A stretch of DNA of 64,000 bases from NCBI GenBank assembly GCA_961205875.1, contig OY540810.1:20584001-20648000 (forward strand), read 5' to 3'. Source of the DNA: Sialis fuliginosa (taxonomy: Eukaryota > Arthropoda > Insecta > Megaloptera > Sialidae). The first letter of the stretch is position 1, and the number at the start of each line of letters is the position of its first letter. Shown in pieces: positions 2,634 through 46,930 of the stretch. Made by a program: the position numbers and the translations under genes. The notes beneath the pieces were generated by a model, which was given only the letters and a program-made list of their open reading frames with translations, did no database searches and was not told where the DNA came from.

Positions 2634-3353
2634 GGGGAGAGTGGGGTAATCACGAACGCGGAGTAATTCAAGTGGTTTAGGTATGTTAGAAGAGGAAAGC
2701 TAATACTCTCTCTGAATTTACCGACAATTGGGCCTACGTCTAACGGTCAGTGCAGATTACGCTTACAGTACAAAGTAAGCTGAGTTACATTTTTATATCA
2801 TATTTCATTTTTATTAAAATAAATTCCATGTTATAACTGATATGTAATTAATACAAATGTGATTAAGTTATGCCCAAGTAAGCCTCGAAAAAACAGTATT
2901 TGATGTCATCCGTATTGTATATTATATTATGATCCTAACCTCAACAAAAATAATTTTTATTTTTTTCAAGCTCAAATTCCGAACGTTGTAAAAAAAGACT
3001 GATGAAAACAATAATTGGAAAAAGTGCGAGAACTCGCAGTCATTTTAAAGAAAATTATTAAAAGAAGAAGTGCGCCCAAGTAAAAAAGAAGACGAAAGGA
3101 AGATGTTGATAAATAAAATAACTATTTTTGTTATTATACTGAGAAATATCAAGATTCTCCTGTTGAAGACTTAGTAATGTGCTTCAAGTGCAATTTATGG
3201 GCACATGATAAGTGTACCAGTGATCAATGTATATTCAGAGGCTTTTGCTGCGAATTTTGAAACTTATTATTCCACTGTTATACTGAAAATGTATAACTAA
3301 AAGATTATTTAATAATAATACACAATACGTCGTAACTACCCCACTCCCCACTC
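2634..3353 (+). mobile_element. pogo-like (Tc1/mariner superfamily) internally deleted DNA transposon
   Basis: Both ends are bounded by TA (2632-2633 and 3354-3355), the usual duplication for this superfamily. The terminal repeats are GGGGAGAGTGGGGTAATCAC on the left and GAGTGGGGAGTGGGGTAG read inward on the right; GGGGAGTGGGGTAA-type ends are familiar from pogo/Tigger-like elements in animals. Inside, a frame from 3117 to the stop at 3258-3260 encodes what looks like the Cys/His-rich tail of such transposases. The DDE catalytic core is absent, so this is a non-autonomous, roughly 720-bp derivative. Confidence 0.65.
3117..3260 (+). pseudogene. Transposase C-terminal zinc-binding tail (pogo-like remnant)
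   Basis: The frame reads NYFCYYTEKYQ, then CFKCNLWAHDKC and a final CIFRGFCCEF before TGA. The layout (C-x2-C, W-A-H-x2-C, then F-C-C) matches the PHD-like Cys/His tail that pogo/Tigger/Jerky-type transposases carry behind the DDE domain, where CxxC...WAHxxC...CxxC is usual. The second cysteine of the first pair is replaced by tyrosine and a stop lies in frame directly upstream (3114-3116), so this is a relic. Assignment is by motif only. Confidence 0.6.
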
Positions 3354-3355
3354 TA

Positions 3356-4109
3356 TTTTTTACATAAAGATTTATCAATTAGTTTTACTACTAGTATATT
3401 GACGTAATTTTAAGGTTGATATTATGACAGAAAGCAAAAGTTTAGATATTTAGATATACCCACGTTTATTAAAAAATTGTATTTAATTTTGTATGACTAA
3501 TCTCATATAATTAAATTAAACCATGCAAAGAAGATATATTTGTGATATTTAAATAATCTAATAATAATGACTACATTTTTGAACCACATCCAAGAAAAAT
3601 GGAAAGAAAAAACATTTGTTATTTTTAAAGCATTAAATTTGATACTTGAACAAATTCGTTGTCTAAGAATGTCAAATTTATAAAATTATTTTAAATGCTT
3701 GTCATTTTGTAAACGTTTAATTTATTTATATAATTAATCTAAAATATTTATTAGCTGTAAAAACAAATCAGTAAAATATTATCTCTGAATATTAATTTTT
3801 ACTACTAATAATAAAAATTTATATCTTTTAAAAACAAACATTACAAATGTAATCAAAAACTTTAATTATAAGCGAACAAATACCATTAACTAAAGAACCA
3901 TAAATAGTCAAAAGGATATCAAAATATAATTACTGTTCAACATCATAAAAACAATATTTTCTTTCGATCTAAATAACTCACCCATTCAATTTTATTCAAT
4001 CTGAATAAAACCAATGAAAAATTATTTGTTTAACATTAGTCATGTTATTCCTGAACATAAAATATTCGTTTTTTTTTTGCTACAGAAACAATAATATTCA
4101 TATGTAAAA
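3356..4109. other. A+T-rich spacer, nothing recognised
   Basis: Very A+T-rich sequence between the pogo-like element and the next foldback. I see no open frame longer than background, no inverted repeat and no tandem array. Confidence 0.6.
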
Positions 4110-4118
4110 TGAAAATTT

Positions 4119-4789
4119 AATATATGCTAATTAATTAATTATTAAGAGGGAACATATGAGTAGACAGCGGAAAAATAGGTGAATTTTGGGAATTATTATC
4201 TCAAAAACTATTTTTTTGATTTCATCCAGGTTTGTTTTATTTTGAAATATATGTATACTGAGGTATATATAATTTTTTTTATGAATATATATGTATATCA
4301 ACTAGGAGCGCTGCTATCGTGACCGGCGTAAAACATGTCCTTCGATACAGTTCTCAGGATTACTGGCAGTCGGTTGATCTGCAACAGAAATTTCAAAGAT
4401 ATTCTTAGAAGTAAATACATGATGCCCTTCGCTACGTAGGATTTTTGAAAAAAAAAACTAATTGAGTAAAAAAAATCCTACTTAGTGAAGGGCATTACAC
4501 ATTAAAAAACTTCTAAGAAAATCTTTGAAATTTCTGTTTCAGATTAACCGACTGCTAGTAATCCTGGGAACCGCATCGAGAGACATGTTTTACACCGGCC
4601 ACGACAGCAGCGTTTCCAGTCGATAAATATTCATAAAAAAATTGTAAACATACCTCAATATATATATGTATACTTTAAAATAAAAAAAACCTGGATGAAA
4701 TTGAACTAACTAACATTCCCAAAATTCACATATTTTTTTCCGCACCGACTACTTATGTATATGTTCCTCTTTAATTAGCATGTGATTCT
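4119..4789. mobile_element. Foldback element with probable 9-bp target duplication
   Basis: Two arms of about 330 bp are imperfect reverse complements meeting near 4455-4465. Matching landmarks are GCTAATTAA at the outer ends, CATCCAGG, AAAACATGT, ATTTCAAAGAT and GCCCTTC near the centre. TGAAAATTT occurs directly outside both ends (4110-4118 and 4790-4798). A 9-bp duplication fits Mutator-like or Drosophila FB-type foldbacks, but the 9-mer is A+T-rich and could be chance. Several substitutions separate the arms, so it is not recent. No transposase is present. Confidence 0.65.
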
Positions 4790-5048
4790 TGAAAATTTTG
4801 TTTAGTTATTTTTTTTGTTTCAGTTAGTCTATTGAATTTTCTTCAAATATTTATATTTTTCAGATTTCTAATATTCCTAGACTCCTTATTTATACAATAA
4901 TTATTTATAAAATATTAAAGAAAATTTTATTAGATTAGTATAGCAGCAAATGACCATTGAGTATGCAATATTAGGTCTCTGAAATGTTAGAAATGTTGGA
5001 TTCGAAAGATTTTTCTGTAGAGACAAAGACCTCAATTTTCGTTTTAGG

Positions 5049-5105
5049 CTCCCCCCCCCCCCCCCTCCTCCAAGGATTCATAAGATTTTAAGAACCCCCC
5101 CTCCC
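5049..5105. repeat. Homopolymeric C tract and C-rich patch
   Basis: A run of about 16 cytosines is followed by CTCCTCC and a second C-rich patch (CCCCCCCTCCCC) some 30 bp on, in otherwise A+T-rich DNA. The complement could form G-quadruplex-like structure. Nearby TTACGTAATG is a phrase common next to old insect DNA-transposon ends, so the tract may be the edge of a decayed element. Confidence 0.5.
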
Positions 5106-6240
5106 CTATCTCCAAAAGCCTTACGTAATGAATGAACAGTTCCTTTATATCTATTTCAATTTATAGGCACAAAAATAACAATTTAAATAATATTTTGACA
5201 TCAAGTATTACAACATTGAAAAAAAACGAATAGTTAAAACTAGATAAAAATCAATATTGGTACCAAAATAACGCCTATTCATCACAACTTTATTGCATGT
5301 TAAATGTGTATCAATAGCATTTAATAGAATTAATTAAAACGTATTGTTGTTAACCAGAACGTGAGTAAACTAGGTGCGGATATATCGAAATGTATAAAAA
5401 TCATATAATCCGATTATTCCTCCTCGGGTTTCGTTCGGTTTTCAATTCATCATCAGCGACTATTGTCACACAGGTCTACAGTTTGATGTATTCAGCAATT
5501 TGTGTTATTTCACACGGTTACTTTTTTACTCTATATAAAATTAAAATAAACATTTTTTATTTGAAGATTTTAATGCACTAAATTGAGATATAAGATCCAT
5601 ATCAAGATCACCGCGGAAGCCTAAGAGTATCTGAAATCTATGTTCTTGTTTTATATTATTAAACTAGGCTGCGGAGATTAACACAGGTTTTTTTTAGGTA
5701 CAGTTTTGTTATTCACAGGATTTGTTACAAATGTGGTGTAGAATAATACCCTACGTTTGCTCCGATTGCAAAAATTTTCAGATTTTCAGATTTTTGCTAA
5801 ATATATGTCTAAATAAGTATTATACAAAAAAAGTTTCAAATAAAAGTTGTTTGCTATAAAATTTCCTATACAATTTCCGTTTTAAAAAAATTAAAAAAAT
5901 TCATTCGTTTATTCGCTATGCTGAAAAAACTTTTATAAAGCTTACTTTTTTAAAGCTAATAACTAATGAAGTTTAATGTTTTTTAAATTGATACTCCGGA
6001 AAAATACACATTTTGTAGTACAGAACATTTACTGAAAATTTGGATCTGATATCTTCAATTATTATCGTTTTATTAAATTGTTAATAAAAAAAAGTATTTG
6101 TAGAACCTTTATTTTTCCACAACTGTTTGTATGTGTTACCAAAGACTTATGTATATATTACGATATAATCGATTGCCACCATAAAAAAGTAGATTGTTAA
6201 ATTATTTGCCAAAAAGTAGCACTAAAATCTTATTATCTCA
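5106..6240. other. A+T-rich DNA, possible old repeat at 5740-6080
   Basis: No gene seen. The frame at 5390-5581 has no recognisable feature. The part from about 5740 (CAAATAAAAGTTGTTTGC and similar phrases) has the flavour of a decayed interspersed repeat, but I could not pair it with another copy in this window. Confidence 0.4.
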
Positions 6241-6600
6241 TTTATTTATTATAAACCAATTCAATTGTTTTATTTAACAAGCAATATTTATAAAAAATAA
6301 TAGCCAAAAATCCACTTTAAAAAATTATCTATTGGTGAAACCCACATAAAAATCGGTTCATTAGTTTTCGAGATTAGCGATAAAAGATACAAAAATAAGC
6401 TTTATTTTATATAGGCAGAGTAAATTAATTGTATAAACAATCAATTTTTGTAAAAATTGTGTAGTGTGTAATATACCTCAAAAACTCAAAAACTACTATT
6501 CCAATTTTAATACGGTTTTCACCAACCAATAAGTAAATAGTTTAAAAATATTGTTGGTTTTATGAAACAATTGAATTGGTTTATAATAAAAAAAATTAAT
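6241..6600. repeat. Old inverted repeat about 360 bp long
   Basis: TTATAAACCAATTCAATTG on the left pairs with CAATTGAATTGGTTTATAAT near 6569-6588. Farther in, ATTGGTGAAACCCACATAAA pairs loosely with the complement of the stretch near 6495-6535. The phrase AAAATCGGTTCATTAGTTTT is typical of decayed insect element tails. It is probably an eroded foldback or MITE; the ends and target duplication are unclear. Confidence 0.5.
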
Positions 6601-6609
6601 AATGTAACT

Positions 6610-7981
6610 CGTTCAAGAAAAATATCTGTCACGTTTTTTGATAAAAAATATCCTAAATCCATTGTTAATGTTTTTACATTTGTTGTGAATCAATCTGTAT
6701 ATCTATTTCAAAAATAAATATATATAATAGTACTGTAAGAACTGTGGGAAGAAAGTTAAAAATACAAAAACATGACGCCTGGTCAGCCTAATCATAGATA
6801 TTGATATTGATACAATTTGAGAAATAGTATTTATTTTAACTATATCAAATATAATTGGTTCGTATGAAACAGCCCTTATTTTTATTATGCCTATATTTAG
6901 TTAGAGCAGTATCCGCCACAAATAATCTGTGAGGTGAATTTTTATCTAATTTATATTATTCAGCGAACGTATTTTAACAATCCCAAATTAAATTTGTAGC
7001 TTTGTTCGGACTAACAAGATTTATTCATTTACTCGTATCTGTGGTATAGGAAACAAAAAATACATTTTATACAATTATATAGATACCTTGCCAGAAATGG
7101 CTTAAGCTGACCGACAACAAATTAGAGAAAAAAATAATATATATACCTACTTATTTTATTTATGATAACAAATCATTAGTGTTGTATGGTTTTATGTGAC
7201 ATAAAAAAAATTTCAGATCCTACAAGCGGAAGTGACGTAATACTATACATCTAGAATAACAAAGTTCTAAATTAAAAGTTATTTTTTAAGTTAGTACAAT
7301 GAGAAACTTATCTCAAGATATTTTTATTTAATCATCGCTAAATATACATGCACCAAAAACTACGTCTCTGGCTCAATACCCTTTTCTTTCGTGGTGCTCA
7401 TTGACTGAAGGCGCTCCCACCAAAATTGCTGATAGAAAAAAAAATGTATTCTCGAGGTGGTTAACCACTTTTGATAACTCACTATATGTAGGTATACTTA
7501 TAAAATAATACTAATACTACTTGTTATCATAGGTACAAGTTAAGATTTGTGTTATTTTAAATTGGGATAATTTAAAAAATCTTACGTCAACGTTGATGCT
7601 ATCTTAAGAATTTCAAGTAAGTACAAATTTTAATGATTTATTTTATTTAACTTTTTTATATTATATATGTCTTTCTGCACTTTCTACTTACTGTATATAT
7701 GATAATTTAATTCGCAGAAACATGATATGACAAAGAAATAATGAATGGTCAAGTATTGGTAACTGGCAGCAACATAAACAAGGTACAATATTAATATATT
7801 ATAAAAAATTATTACATTGCTTTGAACATTTATTTTACAACTTCTGTTTGTGTTGTCACATAAATGTGTCCTCATATATATGAATCTTGTCGTGTGTATT
7901 TAAATTAACAACGGTTTTATACAAATTAATAAAATATCTAGATGTAACAAACAATATCATAAATGGTTCTTTGTTATAATG
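6610..7981. other. A+T-rich spacer, nothing recognised
   Basis: Unique-looking A+T-rich sequence. The 63-residue minus-strand frame at 7684-7875 is hydrophobic by composition and has no start context, domain or partner to support it. Confidence 0.55.
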
Positions 7982-11728: not shown

Positions 11729-13360
11729 AAATCCTAATAGTGCGAGAGCTGATGACATATTTTTCTGCCCCATCTGAGCACTAGGCAGACTTACGAAAAT
11801 CGTTTATTTATATGTTGTACATCATGGGAAAAATAGTCCCAACCCCCACACCCGGGGATAAAGGGGTTTAATTCCTTAGTGAACATGTAAAGAAAAAGTG
11901 CATTTTTGCCCCGTGTGAGCACTAATAAAATCACCACAGGGAGTTAGTTTATGAAAAGTTAGATAGTGAAAGTGCAATGGGCAGACGCGTAGGGTGGGGA
12001 TAAGGGGCAGGCAGACGCACTCAAAGATGCAATATTTTTTTTGAAAATTGCCCCATTTGAGCATTGATGAATTTTGGAGGGATGGCAGTTTTTGATCTGT
12101 AGATGATCGAAAAAACAAAGGCAGACGCGTAGGATGGGGATAAGGGACGGGCAGACGCGCTCAAACATGTAATTTTTTTAATGAAAATTGTCTCATTTGA
12201 TCATTGATGAATTTTTTGAAGGATGACAGGTTTTGATCTGTAGATGACCGAAAAAACATAGGCAGACGCGTAGTGTGGGGATAAGGGATGGGCAGACGCA
12301 ATTGAAAGTGTTATCCTATTTTTTTAACTGGGTTGTTTTGTAATTATTTTTTTTGCTTGAAGTTGTCCGCAATGACTCTCTGGATAACACATTAGTTCTT
12401 TGAAAACACATTTGTTTACCCCCAACTAACACGAAAAGGAAAAATTTCATTAATATGAAAATTAAAAAAAAAATATTAAACGTGTAAAAAAGTAGGCGCT
12501 GAAATTTTTTTTTATTATATTTTGATTATATTCTTCTTATTCTGTGTAATAAACAAAAAACAAAAAATAAATAAATAAAACAGAACTCTTTGGGATTCGA
12601 ACTCAGGACCTTGGGACTTTGAGTTTTATAAATTTACATATTTCAGCAAAACGGTACTTGACATCAAAAAAACTACAAGAGACATATTTTCTTCTTACTT
12701 AGATGATTCTAAAACATATTTGATATCATCGATGGAATATTTAGTACCGAAGATACAATGTTTTTAAAAATTTTACAACCCTTTGCCACTTTCAATTGCG
12801 TCTGCCCTCCCCTTATCCCCACACTACACGTCTGCCTATGTTTTTTCGGTCATCTACAGATCAAAACCTGTCATCCTTCAAAAAATTCATCAATGCTCAA
12901 ATGAGACAATTTTCATTAAAAAAATTACATGTTTGAGCGCGTCTGCCCGTCCCTTATCCCCATCCTACGCGTCTGCCTTTGTTTTTTCGATCATCTACAG
13001 ATCAAAAACTGCCATCCCTCCAAAATTCATCAATGCTCAAATGGGGCAATTTTCAAAAAAAATATTGCATCTTTGAGTGCGTCTGCCTGCCCCTTATCCC
13101 CACCCTACGCGTCTGCCCATTGCACTTTCACTATCTAACATTTCATAAACTAACTCCCTGTGGTGATTTTATTAGTGCTCACATGGGGCAAAAATGCACT
13201 TTTTCTTTACATGTTCACTAAGGAATTAAACCTCTTTATCCCCGGGTGTGGGGGTTGGGACTATTTTTCCCATGATGTACAACATATAAATAAACGATTT
13301 CCGTAAGTCTGCCTAGTGCTCAGATGGGGCAGAAAAATATGTCATCAGCTCTCGCACTAT
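11729..13360. mobile_element. FB-like foldback element with tandem subrepeats in both arms
   Basis: Arms of about 575 bp (11737-12312 and 12785-13360) are near-complete reverse complements around a ~470-bp loop. Outer landmarks are ATAGTGCGAGAGCTGATGAC and its complement at 13341-13360. Each arm contains about three ~140-bp units opening with GCAGACGCGTAG (left arm 11981, 12121, 12262). TATAATGATTT recurs at 11718-11728 and 13358-13368, a possible target duplication overlapping the right end. Drosophila FB elements have this design of inverted repeats made of tandem units. Several short frames here are products of the repeats, not genes. Confidence 0.8.
12592..12622 (-). other. B-box-like sequence in the foldback loop
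   Basis: On the minus strand GAGTTCGAATCCC matches the RNA polymerase III B-box of tRNA genes and tRNA-derived SINEs. The flanking bases do not form a T-stem, and no A-box or cloverleaf is visible, so this is not a tRNA gene. A SINE fragment carried in the loop is possible. Confidence 0.3.
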
Positions 13361-13720
13361 AATGATTTTTAAGCAAGATACGATCGATAAATTATACATT
13401 TAAAAAAATAGAATAATGTATTCTGCAACCGATTTTAATTGAATTTTTTTTATGCATCTATAATTAATAATTTTCGGATATTGCAATTCATATTTTATTT
13501 TTTAATGTGTATTTAGTTCTAAAAAAGTTGACATTTTTATAAAAACATAGTTCATTTTATAACCAAGCCATGTTATTTTCAATTTTTTTTAATTTTTGGT
13601 ATCTATTGTAGTAAGATCTCATTAACCTCTCTCATGAAACTACACGGTTTTGGGTGTATTAGTACACATTTGATTTACATTTGAATAGTATCTGCATCGA
13701 AACACGTAAACGACTATAAT
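13361..13720. other. A+T-rich spacer
   Basis: Nothing recognised between the foldback and the richer patch that follows. Confidence 0.5.
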
Positions 13721-17753: not shown

Positions 17754-18172
17754 TGTTTAAAGTATTTAAACTAAAACGAAATGAAACTTATCAAAAGTAA
17801 GAAACGGTTATGAATACTGTATGTAAGCTATTACCGATATAAATTTTTCAAATGTAAACATATAAACAGTCACGAAGTACGAGAGCGCTATCGCGACAAA
17901 TGAACAATGCCGTTATTATAAGAGTATTATAACATTCGGCGCTTGACCATGGGCCAATATCTAAGAACAAATACACGCATACGCATCACTAGCATTCATT
18001 ATTACATCACTGAACGATACGGCAGTTCTCAATAATACAGTGCGTATTAATAAAACAAATAAATGGCAATAAGTGAAATAAAAGCGTTTTATTAAACGAA
18101 AGTGCACATGTTGTGGTAATTGTGATAATCAAATTGAGTTCCTGTGATTGAATAACCTGTGTGCAAGAAATA

Positions 18173-18355
18173 GTAAGGCGCCCTCCAACGTGCAAGGTGC
18201 AAGCAACCACAGTAAGGTGCCCTCCAACGTGCAAGGTGCAAGCAGCCACAGTAAGGCGCCCTCCCACGTGCAAGGTGCAAGCAGCCACAGTAAGGCGCAA
18301 TACAACGTGCAAGTGGCAAGCAATCATAGTACGGCGCATTCCGACGTACAAGGTA
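18173..18355. repeat. 39-bp tandem array in the 5' LTR
   Basis: About four and a half units with period 39, each built on GTAAGGCGCCCTCC, ACGTGCAAGGTGCAAGC and CACA. The last two units are more diverged. The third carries CACGTG, an E-box. The array is repeated unchanged in the 3' LTR (22815-22997). Arrays like this in LTRs often act as enhancer or insulator clusters; that role here is inference. Confidence 0.85.
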
Positions 18356-22395: not shown

Positions 22396-23771
22396 TGTTT
22401 AAAGTATTTAAACTAAAACGAAATGAAACTTATCAAAAGTAAGAAACGGTTATGAATACTGTATGTAAGCTATTACCGATATAAATTTTTCAAATGTAAA
22501 CATATAAACAGTCACGAAGTACGAGAGCGCTATCGCGACAAATGAACAATGCCGTTATTATAAGAGTATTATAACATTCGGCGCTTGACCATGGGCCAAT
22601 ATCTAAGAACAAATACACGCATACGCATCACTAGCATTCATTATTACATCACTGAACGATACGGCAGTTCTCAATAATACAGTGCGTATTAATAAAACAA
22701 ATAAATGGCAATAAGTGAAATAAAAGCGTTTTATTAAACGAAAGTGCACATGTTGTGGTAATTGTGATAATCAAATTGAGTTCCTGTGATTGAATAACCT
22801 GTGTGCAAGAAATAGTAAGGCGCCCTCCAACGTGCAAGGTGCAAGCAACCACAGTAAGGTGCCCTCCAACGTGCAAGGTGCAAGCAGCCACAGTAAGGCG
22901 CCCTCCCACGTGCAAGGTGCAAGCAGCCACAGTAAGGCGCAATACAACGTGCAAGTGGCAAGCAATCATAGTACGGCGCATTCCGACGTACAAGGTATTA
23001 ATTTAAGAATCACTTGATTATCTGCTAGTATCAACTACTAGCTCAATCATTTGATCAAGAAATCACTAAAATCAGAATCACTTGATTATCTGCTAGTATC
23101 AACTACTGGCTCAATCATTTGATCAATAAATCACTGCCAGTATCAACTACTGGCCCTGTAACTGGATTCAACTCCTGGCTCAGTAACTGGATCAGTAATC
23201 GCCTGCTGGTATCAACTACGAGCTCGGTCACTTGATCAATAATCGGACTTGCTGAGAGTCATCATAGAGTCTATCTACGTGCTGAGATTCAGAATTGTAT
23301 CAGTAACTAGGAAGGTAACTTTATCATTTACTAAACATACCTAGTTTACATATGTACTTGCCCATTAGCAGTATTACCTTTGAGACGTGTAAGTTGCCTT
23401 CTCAACGTGCATAGTCTCAAACGACATGTACAACCTAATTGTTCATATTTAACGACTTGCACGGTCTCAATACAATGACGATTTATAACTTCCTTTCAGC
23501 GACTCTTTACTATATAGATATTTGATTAACACTTGCAAAATATCAATTTCAGAACCTGTTCGGTCATAAGGGAATTAAACTCCAGATGCCACGTTGGTCA
23601 AGATGAAAGGTCAAGTTTATCCTTTTGTTATTTCAAAACATTTGTTAACTGTCATCATAATTAATGTCTTATAATTCAAAATAAAGCAAAGTATACAGCA
23701 GAAACAAAATTTAGTATTCTTTCAATCCACCCGGCTTTTACCATCCTTCTTCACACACATCAACTTTAACA
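22396..23771 (+). repeat. BEL/Pao 3' LTR
   Basis: Same length and, as far as I could read, the same sequence as the left LTR at a constant offset of 4642 bp. It ends TTTAACA and is followed by the TATTT duplication at 23772-23776. The identical LTR pair is the main evidence for a young insertion. Confidence 0.92.
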
Positions 23772-31533: not shown

Positions 31534-33522
31534 TAGTCCAGTAAAGGAAGCATTTTGACAGGAAATTAAGAGGGCAAGCAATTTTATGATTGATTCTTAT
31601 AGATTTTGAACCGGAGAATTCGAAAAAAATAACCCGGAATAGCGAAAAGTGGTGCAACACCCTTAAAAATGGGGTTTAAGGGTGAAAATCCTATTTCCAA
31701 CCGTTTTTTCAATTTATCACAAAATCTGAAGCGATGATGGTATATTTTTATGGTTGATACATGTTCAAGACACTCAGATGAATCGATTGTGACCACATAT
31801 ACTAAATTTGGCCCAAAATTATCTCTTCCAGAGGGTTTAAAAGACTTAAAAATGCATCTTTTCGGGGAAAATAGTTTAAAAATTAATAACTTTTGTTAAA
31901 ATCATCCAAATGACTCGTAACTAGGCTCAAATTGTTCCTGAAGTTCCAAAGAATAATAATGAACCATAATTTAAAAAAATATTAATAGTTTAACCAATAA
32001 AAATCGCTAATGTTTAAGGGTAAGTAACGTAAATTTTTGAAAAACTATCTTTTTACTAAAATTTAAATAAAAACATCAGGGTTGAATATTTTTTAGTGAA
32101 ACCAAAGTAGATACCTTCTGTTTGTACATACAAACAAAATGAGACCCCCCAAAATAAAATTCAATTATTAGAACGGGTGCAAGTGCGATTAGAAATACAC
32201 TGAATTTTTGTTGTATACAATTAAAAAAAATTACATTTTTCCAAACAAAATAATAGATTCAGTCCAGTAAAGGAAGCATTTTGACATGAAATTATAGGGG
32301 CAAGGAATTTTATGATTGATTCTTATAGATTTTGAACCGGAGAATTCGAAAAAATAACCCGGACTAGCGAAAAGTGGTTCAACACCCTTAAAAAAATTTT
32401 TATGGTTGATATATATTCAGGACACTTAGATGAATCGATTGTGACCACATATACTAAATTTGGCCAAAAATTACCTCTTCCAAAGGGCTTAAAAGACGTA
32501 AAAATGCACTTACCCTTAAACATTAGCGATTTTCATTGGTTAAACTACTAATATTTTTTTAAATTATGGTTGGTCATTATTCTTTGGAACTTCAGGAATA
32601 ATTTGAGCCTAGTTACGAGTCATTTGGATGATTTTAACAAAAGTTATTAATTTTTAAACTATTTTCCCAGAAAAGATGCATTTTTACGTCTTTTAAGCCC
32701 TTTTAAAGACGTAATTTTTGGCCAAATTTAGTATATGTGGTCACAATCGATTCGTCTTAGTGTCCTGAACATATATCAATCATAAAAATACACCATCGTT
32801 GCTTTAGATTTTGTGATAATTTGTAAAAACGGTTGGAAATGGGCTTTTCACCTTTAAAGCCCATTTTAAGGGTGTTGCACCACTTTTCGTTAGTCCGGGT
32901 TATTTTTTTCGATTTCTCCGGTTCAAAATCTATAAGAATCAATTCGTTTCACTAAAAAATATTTAACCCTGGTGTTTTTATTTAAATTTTAGTAAAAGGG
33001 TAGTTTTTCAAAAAATTATGTTACTTACCCTTAAACATTAGCGATTTTTATTGGTTAAACGATTATTATTTTTTTATTTATGGTTGGTCATTATTCTTTG
33101 GAATTTCAGGAACAATTTGACGCTAATTACGAGTCATTTGGATGATTTTAACAAAAGTTATTAATTTTTAAACTATTTTCCCGAAAAGATGCATTTTTCT
33201 GTCTTTTAAGCCCTCTGGAACAGGTAATTTTTGGTCAAATTAAGTATATGTGGTCACAATCGATTCGCCTGAGTATCCTGAACATATATCAACGATAAAA
33301 ATATACCATCGTCGCTTTAGATTTTGTGATAAATTGAAAAAACGGTTGGATATGGGGTTTTCACCCTTAAACCCCATTTTTAAGGGTGTTGCACCACTTT
33401 TCGCTAGTCCGGGTTATTTTTTTCGAATTCTCCGGTTCAAAATCTATAAGAATCAATCATAAAATTGCTTGCCCTCTAAATTTCCCTTTTTCTCACTTTT
33501 CACTGCTTCCTTGACTGGGCTA
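31534..33522. mobile_element. Nested palindromic element (four related arms)
   Basis: The outer ends TAGTCCAGTAAAGGAAGC and, read inward from the right, TAGCCCAGTCAAGGAAGC pair. Four copies of one arm sequence are present: two forward (about 31534-32095 and 32263-32510) and two reverse (about 32510-32942 and 32945-33522). Landmarks are AACCGGAGAATTCGAAAAA, GGTGTTGCACCACTTTTCG, GTGGTCACAATCGATTC and CATCCAAATGACTCGTAA. A third left-type end lies at 32262. It appears that one foldback was inserted in, or recombined with, another. The 60-70-residue frames are arm products. No clear target duplication. Confidence 0.75.
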
Positions 33523-44741: not shown

Positions 44742-45450
44742 TACCAATCATTTATTTGCTTAATTAATTTTTTTTTTACGCGAGAAGTAGAAAACACTGA
44801 GATGTTGATGCGACGAGGGATAAAACCCAAAAGTATGAAGTTTATGTTAGTAAACTATAACTTTTGAAGAGTCTTAAGTCTGAAGATGTCTAATGAAACT
44901 TTGTTGAAGAACATTTCATAAAGAAAAATACATATAAAGTTGGTAGGTACTCGAAGTAGCTAAACTCTATCATAATTTAAAAAGGTTGTCAAATGTTTGT
45001 TCATGTATACATGTAAAATGTGAACTACATAATAAAAGTTAATTTTACTTTAAAAATTGTGTTTTTTATTATTTCTCCAAAACTAGAAATGGTATAATGT
45101 TGATATTGCAACCAAATTTTTTTCATATTTTTTGAATCAGTACTTATCGAGATATATAAAGGGGATACATGAAAGTATCCCGAGCTCCTTGCTAGCGCAA
45201 TTTATGAGTAAAAAAATAGCTATAAAAAAGTTTTAGCCTTACTTTATATCTATTTAATTGTTTTGTCATTTTTTATTATATGATTTTTTAAATATAATGA
45301 AAATTGATATAGGTATTCAGTAACAAAAGCTAAACATACATATTAAAATATGTACGAGTATATACATAATAAATAGTGTGCCTATGTAATAAAATCGTGT
45401 AACAAAATTATAGATATATAATAACTTTTATTAAAAACATTTTTTCTATA

Positions 45451-45557
45451 CTCTATTTCATTTAAGAATGCAGTGGTTGCCGGGGTTTTGACGGTACGAA
45501 TCGTGCATTTTACCGTCCAAAACCACAGCAACCACTGCATTCTAAAATGAAATGGAG
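45451..45557. mobile_element. 107-bp TA-flanked MITE / hairpin
   Basis: CTCTATTTCATTTAAGAATG and, inward from the right, CTCCATTTCATTTTAGAATG open terminal repeats of about 47 bp that share CAGTGGTTGC and end at ACGGTA. TA flanks both sides (45449-45450, 45558-45559), suggesting a Tc1/mariner-type origin. It is almost wholly a hairpin. Confidence 0.75.
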
Positions 45558-45579
45558 TAAAGTTTGCATCATTTCAAAA

Positions 45580-45616
45580 GTAATTCGAAAAATTCTAATT
45601 TTACATTAGTATACAT
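45580..45616 (+). repeat. Dispersed repeat with GACAGACA stretch, copy 2, left part
   Basis: AAGTAATTCGAAAAATT parallels 1557-1574. The repeat is split by the palindrome and continues at 46737. See the uninterrupted relative at 1556-1885. Confidence 0.55.
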
Positions 45617-46736
45617 TAGGGTGTTTCGTTTGAAACGAATATTTTTTTTTTTCCTCCGACACTGTGAAATATTGTTCTCAACACTGAAAAAAAAATTCCC
45701 TGAAAATTTGAGCCCTTAATTTTAATTTAAAGTACTTCCTTTTTTATTTTGAATTTTTCCCATTTAAAATACATGTATTTTAAACCACGTTTTTTTTTAA
45801 TTTCTATATCTTGGCTGGATTTTAAACTATTATGTTGATAAGCATTGATATTTGTAGTATATTTAACGCTCTTTTGAAGACCTTAGGACAATTTCAACCC
45901 AACTTATTTCATATTATTTTTATTAGCCCTGTTAGTCATTTTTTTTATTTTTTTCACATATTTTTGAAAATATTGAGAAAATGGCTTGTCTGGCTGAAAA
46001 AATGTAGAGACAAAAATTGTAGGAAATCAAATTTTCTACAAAAATGATGTCTATAAATATGTCGCTCGAATGCATAGTTTCGGAAATATGAACAGTTGAA
46101 TATTTGAAAATCAAAAAAATATTAATTTTTTTGAGTTTTACTGTCTTAAATTCACTTTAGGCCTGTAGAGAAATGTCGTGAGAAAATTATAAGAAAAAAA
46201 TTTCAACAATAATAGGAAAGAAAAAAATTAATATTTTTTTGATTTTCAAATATTCAACTGTTCATATTTCCGAAACTATGCATTCGAGCGACATATTTAT
46301 AGACATCATTTTTGTAGAAAATTTGATTTCCTACAATTTTTGTCTCTACATTTTTTCAGCCAGACAAGCCATTTTCTCAATATTTTCAAAAATATGTGAA
46401 AAAAATAAAAAAAATGACTAACAGGGCTAATAAAAATAATATGAAATAAGTTGGGTTGAAATTGTCCTAAGGTCTTCAAAAGAGCGTTAAATATACTACA
46501 AATATCAATGCTTATCAACATAATAGTTTAAAATCCAGCCAAGATATAGAAATTAAAAAAAAACGTGGTTTAAAATACATGTATTTTAAATGGGAAAAAT
46601 TCAAAATAAAAAAGGAAGTACTTTAAATTAAAATTAAGGGCTCAAATTTTCAGGGAATTTTTTTTTCAGTGTTGAGAACAATATTTCACAGTGTCGGAGG
46701 AAAAAAAAAAATATTCGTTTCAAACGAAACACCCTA
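45617..46736. mobile_element. hAT-like foldback: 1.12-kb palindrome with perfect arms and 8-bp duplication
   Basis: Arms 45617-46132 and 46221-46736 are reverse complements of 516 bp in which I found no mismatch, including homopolymer lengths (11 T against 11 A, 9 T against 9 A). The loop is 88 bp. The ends are TAGGGTGTTTCGTTTGAAAC. GTATACAT lies directly outside both ends (45609-45616, 46737-46744); an 8-bp duplication with TAGGG ends fits the hAT superfamily. The two 71-residue frames (45832-46047 plus, 46306-46521 minus) encode the same peptide only because the arms match. No transposase. Confidence 0.88.
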
Positions 46737-46930
46737 GTATACATACGATTCCGGTTGTAAGATCGTTTTAAAAAATAGTAGGTTCAAAATCAATCCTAAA
46801 TATAAATTTTCGCCTTTCTATGTACTGTTGCTTTGGAATTACAGCGTCTACAGACATACATACATCATAGTGAAAATAGAAGTTAAAATTCTATTTCCAT
46901 CAAAACCTCAAGTTAAAAAAATCAGTTTAA
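46737..46930 (+). repeat. Dispersed repeat with GACAGACA stretch, copy 2, right part
   Basis: CCGGTTGTAAGATCGTTTTA, AATCCTAAATATAAA, TTACAGCGTCTACAGACATA and CATCATAGTGAAAATAGAAG follow the order of 1621-1790. This confirms that the palindrome landed inside a pre-existing repeat. Confidence 0.65.

Follow-up and report, generated by a model that had tools for sequence, protein, structure and literature searches.

A perfect 1.1-kb palindrome in Sialis fuliginosa, probably a non-autonomous derivative of a divergent hAT-like transposon with long terminal inverted repeats

Structure of the Palindromic Element

The window analysed here is a stretch of 64,000 nucleotides of Sialis fuliginosa (C2:20584001-20648000) within a 392-Mb assembly of 20 contigs. 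It contains an element of 1120 bp (45617-46736) that consists of two arms and a loop and is flanked by an 8-bp target-site duplication (TSD), GTATACAT, at 45609-45616 and again at 46737-46744. The left arm (516 bp, 45617-46132, plus strand) is equal to the consensus arm of the family described below. The right arm (516 bp, 46221-46736, minus strand) is the exact reverse complement of the left arm and the counterpart of the right terminal inverted repeat (TIR) of a 5.9-kb relative. The 88-bp loop (46133-46220, plus strand), which is asymmetric, corresponds to the bases immediately internal to the left TIR in that relative and so gives the window element an orientation. The termini read TAGGGTG...CACCCTA. 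The computed inverted repeat is slightly longer, 521 nt (45612-46132 and 46221-46741, 100% complementary, 88 nt between), and was trimmed to 516 bp because its outermost five bases at either end are part of the TSD, which has a palindromic GTATAC core.

These values agree with the first-pass annotation, which had given 45609-46744 with the TSDs included, 516-bp arms, an 88-bp loop, TAGGGTG ends and an 8-bp TSD. A base-level comparison of the arms, named beforehand as a place where that description could fail, found 0 mismatches over 516 bp. Chance is excluded as the source of an exact 516-bp inverted repeat combined with an 8-bp duplication. A separate short inverted repeat at 45446-45562, with 45-nt arms (89%) and a loop of 27 nt, sits ~46 bp to the left of the TSD.

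Long perfect palindromes are prone to assembly error, so that a collapsed or polished inverted duplication has to be considered. Such an artefact is extremely improbable here and was rejected: the loop is asymmetric, a TSD is present, an identical copy lies on another contig, and the arms differ in 25 of the 28 complete two-arm copies of the same assembly, which makes a palindrome forced by polishing unlikely. It is also very unlikely that the element has been retained as a source of hairpin RNA (an siRNA locus). A perfect stem of 516 bp, which the first-pass annotation had suggested as a possible Dicer-2 substrate, does follow from the sequence if the element is transcribed through, but transposition alone accounts for many near-identical dispersed copies with TSDs. 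Rfam reported no family in the window at the gathering threshold, in a scan that would miss siRNA loci anyway, and an ARAGORN scan found no tRNA.

A Dispersed Family

The arm recurs throughout the genome, with at least 69 matches (40 of 333 candidates scored). The 25-bp end, allowing up to three mismatches, occurs at 108 places (53 forward, 55 reverse), and the reversed control pattern at none. The first-pass annotation had made its reading depend on the presence of the family elsewhere in the assembly; 57 family loci were read (L031-L087, the window copy being L034). Both ends are present in 52 of the 57, and all of these except L036, L062 and L080 carry an exact 8-bp TSD (49 of 52). The pattern nTnnnnAn fits 48 of the 49 exact TSDs, versus 12.5% of the 8-mers in the window.

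The family falls into a class of ~1.1 kb (mostly 1106-1149 bp, some copies with insertions or deletions) and a class of ~0.65 kb (mostly 646-654 bp), with two long members of 5883 bp (L031) and 8198 bp (L032). The features that define a foldback element or palindromic MITE are all found: long inverted arms, noncoding sequence, a TSD, multiple copies and a matching coding relative. The window itself gave no match when searched for transposases of the group.

Probable Deletion Origin of the Palindrome

The full-length relative L031 (C14:5274852-5280734, 5883 bp) lies on a different chromosome from the window and has its own TSD, ATACGTAC. Its TIRs are 550 bp long and 99.3% identical. Positions 1-605 of the window element correspond to the left end of L031 and positions 605-1120 to the right end, with about one base common to both at the junction. 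Since one part aligns with each end of L031, the window element can be read as an L031-type transposon minus ~4.8 kb of its middle; on these alignments, it appears to derive by internal deletion (left 605 bp plus right 516 bp) from a transposon with long TIRs. In the 0.65-kb class, 340 bases from the start of the same element are followed by 315 bases from its end.

Foldback elements are often orphans without a known transposase. The first-pass annotation had described a foldback without stating its origin, and the feature is better explained by internal deletion of a long-TIR element. The search that it had proposed, for further copies and for an autonomous relative, yielded both copies and, in L031, a coding relative whose ends are the same. 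The window feature is very probably a palindromic, non-autonomous member of a divergent hAT-like lineage of cut-and-paste DNA transposons.

The history would begin with a full-length element that has inverted repeats of ~550 bp and a multi-exon transposase gene on the minus strand. Internal deletions of this type are usually ascribed to interrupted repair of the gap left by excision, and the middle was probably lost in this way, leaving a palindrome of 605 + 516 bp with an 88-bp loop. A second deletion step would have given the 0.65-kb class. As the TSDs and shared ends suggest, a transposase acting in trans would bind the TAGGGTG ends, excise the element and insert it elsewhere with an 8-bp nTnnnnAn duplication; the window copy would be a recent insertion of this kind.

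The Transposase Gene

A relative elsewhere in the same genome (L101) has a single uninterrupted frame of 706 aa (L101:1477-3597, minus strand), which served as the reference. On its minus strand, L031 has four open pieces that match this frame in order: 4482-5132 (residues 2-104, E 2e-8), 3263-3979 (residues 181-344, E 4e-28), 2517-2852 (residues 343-413, E 3e-17) and 1129-1989 (residues 432-699, E 5e-63). Because of this order, they are read as putative exons. The last coding piece has 112 matches in all, many of them in relatives at lower identity; three copies at 99-100% identity are all on C14. This contig holds the three near-identical coding copies and many relatives, most between ~2.7 and 6.8 Mb. 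The 8198-bp member has the same coding pieces and, nested within it, a pogo/Tigger-type gene (6045-7880, minus strand, 611 aa, DDE_1 E 1e-42).

Pfam, NCBIfam, PHROGs and PDB sequences were searched with individual pieces, with complete frames and with an alignment of nine members, and returned sub-cut-off matches only; the best Pfam E value, from a scan of the nine transposase members, was 0.011. No transposase relatives were found among IMG/VR and GTDB contigs, where insect-like genomes are few, so that this says little about distribution. A literature search found no published description of the transposase lineage or of its ends; absence from print is not claimed.

Relationship to hAT and P Elements

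The first-pass annotation had called the element hAT-type. The length and pattern of the TSD, the copies and the coding relative with the same ends speak for this assignment; against it, no hAT Pfam model (Dimer_Tnp_hAT or other) matches the transposase at cut-off. Pfam does find ordinary hATs in this genome, with at least 150 matches (150 of 613 candidates), and PF05699 matches other loci. Neither the L031 N-terminal piece nor the 706-aa relative matched a Pfam zinc finger, the BED type included.

The motifs HWD, CxDT..N, RDDY, H.ARW, HLWY and ND.AER are conserved across the alignments. Their order resembles, by eye, that of the sites D, D-C/H, RW and ER of hATs from the same genome. Aligned to a profile of four of these hATs, the transposase profile scored 33.1 at the second-D / C-x-x-H block (hhalign P 0.0047, probability 7.5%). 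None of 120 column-shuffled controls reached this score (best 23.9), and the reversed hAT profile scored 17.5, an unrelated pogo-type protein 23.1 and the P-type profile 14.2. Single hATs scored unevenly, with 30.0, 27.9 and 18.5, and with 14.8 at a different site. On these motifs and weak profile scores, the transposase is likely to be distantly kin to hAT.

The known hAT elements and MITEs Hermes, BuT2 and Mar share with the present family the 8-bp TSD, the nTnnnnAn pattern, non-autonomous copies derived by deletion and a multi-exon gene. Hermes prefers nTnnnnAn targets (PMC10368747). BuT2 has a five-exon gene and MITEs formed by internal deletion (PMC3942097), and non-autonomous copies of Mar likewise arose by internal deletion (PMC3517528). 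The present family departs from these hATs in that its deletion derivative is a near-complete palindrome, in the missing hAT Pfam and BED matches, and in the length of its TIRs. Those of hATs are usually 10-25 bp (PMC3942097), versus 550 bp in L031 and ~349 bp in a relative at C2:7640269.

Long TIRs raise the alternative that the family belongs, like the foldback-like Galileo, to the P superfamily and does not stand near hAT. The TIRs of Galileo are long and 98-100% alike within a copy, derivatives made of two TIRs occur, and exchange or conversion between TIRs has been proposed (PMC3573991). P-type transposases also occur in this genome, and the P profile aligns at the same second-aspartate site as the hAT profile. 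However, P-element Pfam models do not match the transposase, although PF21787 finds P-type elements at 68 places in the genome. The P scores (14.2 with two sequences, 14.3 and 18.0 singly) lie within the shuffled range, in a comparison that is uneven because the P sample consists of two near-identical proteins. Furthermore, Galileo has a P-type transposase and a TSD of 7 bp (PMC4168063), versus 8 bp in the present family, and nTnnnnAn is the Hermes/hAT pattern (PMC10368747). Internal tandem repeats occur in the TIRs of Galileo, and none were seen in the family of the window element. Membership in P, with Galileo, is unlikely and was rejected on the missing P Pfam match, the scores at shuffled level and the TSD length.

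Tetris is alike in being nearly all inverted repeat, without an ORF, with TSDs of 8-10 bp and with hints of repeat homogenization (PMC4079207). It has no known transposase or coding partner and is placed with Mutator by its authors, unlike the window family, where a coding relative shares the ends.

Related Families with the Same Ends

TAGGGTG ends are common to two further families, one coding and one palindromic. The coding family has a transposase that is 39% identical, and its copies at C2:7640269-7644114 and C8:1363588-1367427 have TAGGGTGTCC ends, also given as TAGGGTGTCCGTTATTTCCC. Exact 8-bp TSDs, ATGTATAT and ATGAACAT, flank both of the loci read (2/2). The TIRs of the C2 copy are 96% alike.

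The palindromic family, with TAGGGTGGTC ends, is older and has at least 81 arm matches (40 of 830 candidates scored). A copy of 1738 bp (L114, C1:21373045-21374782) has arms that match at 95% over ~820 bp and at 92.7% over the full length; the TSD of this copy, GCGTGTAC, departs from nTnnnnAn. Transposase matches are enclosed by ends of the TAGGGTGGTC type at C9:105179-107129, where the last 498 bases match the arm of the L114 family at 95%. TAGGGTG-type ends thus appear to travel with the transposase group. Since these related families have long TIRs or palindromes, long TIRs and palindromic derivatives recur within the group.

Age and Homogenization of the Arms

The window copy is identical over 1120/1120 positions to L039 on C3, and both its arms equal the family consensus. 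L051 differs from it at one place, and in L066 the arms are identical while the loop differs twice. Identity to a copy on another chromosome indicates that the window copy is recent.

Arm comparisons used 28 copies with both arms complete, namely 27 short copies and L031 (8 of the 36 long-class loci were dropped for incomplete or rearranged arms). Perfect arms occur in three of the 28 (L034, L039 and L066), and the mean divergence from the consensus is 2.8 substitutions per 516-bp arm. In the 1.1-kb class, with copies oriented by their loops, the two arms of one copy differ by 3.18 substitutions, versus 4.70 (a-b), 5.04 (a-a) and 4.29 (b-b) between copies. A within-copy value as low was reached in 0 of 20000 random re-pairings of the 28-copy set. 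Of the shared substitutions, 11 of 19 are carried twice, once per arm, by one or more copies; for example, T182A together with T330A marks both arms in seven copies and G393T in 4/4 copies. All 47 private substitutions, in contrast, are confined to a single arm.

The 0.65-kb class, for which 18 of 21 loci were used (three were omitted for incomplete or rearranged arms), gave a within-copy value of 3.11 versus 3.02 between copies, and 18932 of 20000 re-pairings were as low or lower. In this class, 12 copies carry C188T solely on the b arm, one carries it solely on the a arm and one on both. The right arms of L032 and L065, both long coding copies, and of L053 have it too, a shared marker that ties the classes together.

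It could be that the arms are alike solely through the youth of all copies, with no exchange between arms. Divergence is indeed small, the 0.65-kb class is consistent with youth alone, and so are the private substitutions, none of them two-armed. Without exchange, however, within-copy differences should equal re-paired ones, as they do not in the 1.1-kb class, and the T182A + T330A and G393T markers require the same change on two arms. Youth alone was rejected for the 1.1-kb class on the re-pairing test and the two-arm markers; as a general account it keeps a small but appreciable probability. Homogenization occurred instead in copies ancestral to the 1.1-kb class, and it was episodic or old and not continuous, because no private substitution is two-armed and the 0.65-kb class gives no signal. 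In the ancestry of the 1.1-kb class one arm was sometimes copied onto the other, perhaps during transposition-linked repair, producing subfamilies with the same substitution on both arms. The first-pass annotation had offered a very recent insertion or conversion as alternatives; both hold, at different levels, the copy being recent and the ancestry of its class homogenized.

Implications and Other Features of the Window

With little divergence, one genome here contains the palindrome and the record of its deletion, a candidate coding relative and both size classes. Counts of one-arm and two-arm markers make it testable how long inverted repeats stay alike, with homogenization in one class only. 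The transposase group also illustrates that annotation based on Pfam can miss a transposon lineage of several families. Tentatively, the group may represent an undescribed, hAT-related, multi-family lineage that is invisible to Pfam, with habitual long TIRs and repeated palindromic derivatives, whose arms could be re-equalized in bouts of transposition or repair and not while resident.

The window holds other repeats. A large inverted repeat at 11729-13368 has 582-nt arms that are 98% complementary and a 476-nt loop; its arm has at least 42 matches in the genome (40 of 504 candidates scored). Overlapping inverted repeats are clustered at 31561-33485, with arms of up to 365 nt at 91%. Identical frames of 114 aa at 18007-18351 and 22649-22993 (minus strand), 4642 bases apart, suggest a direct duplication.
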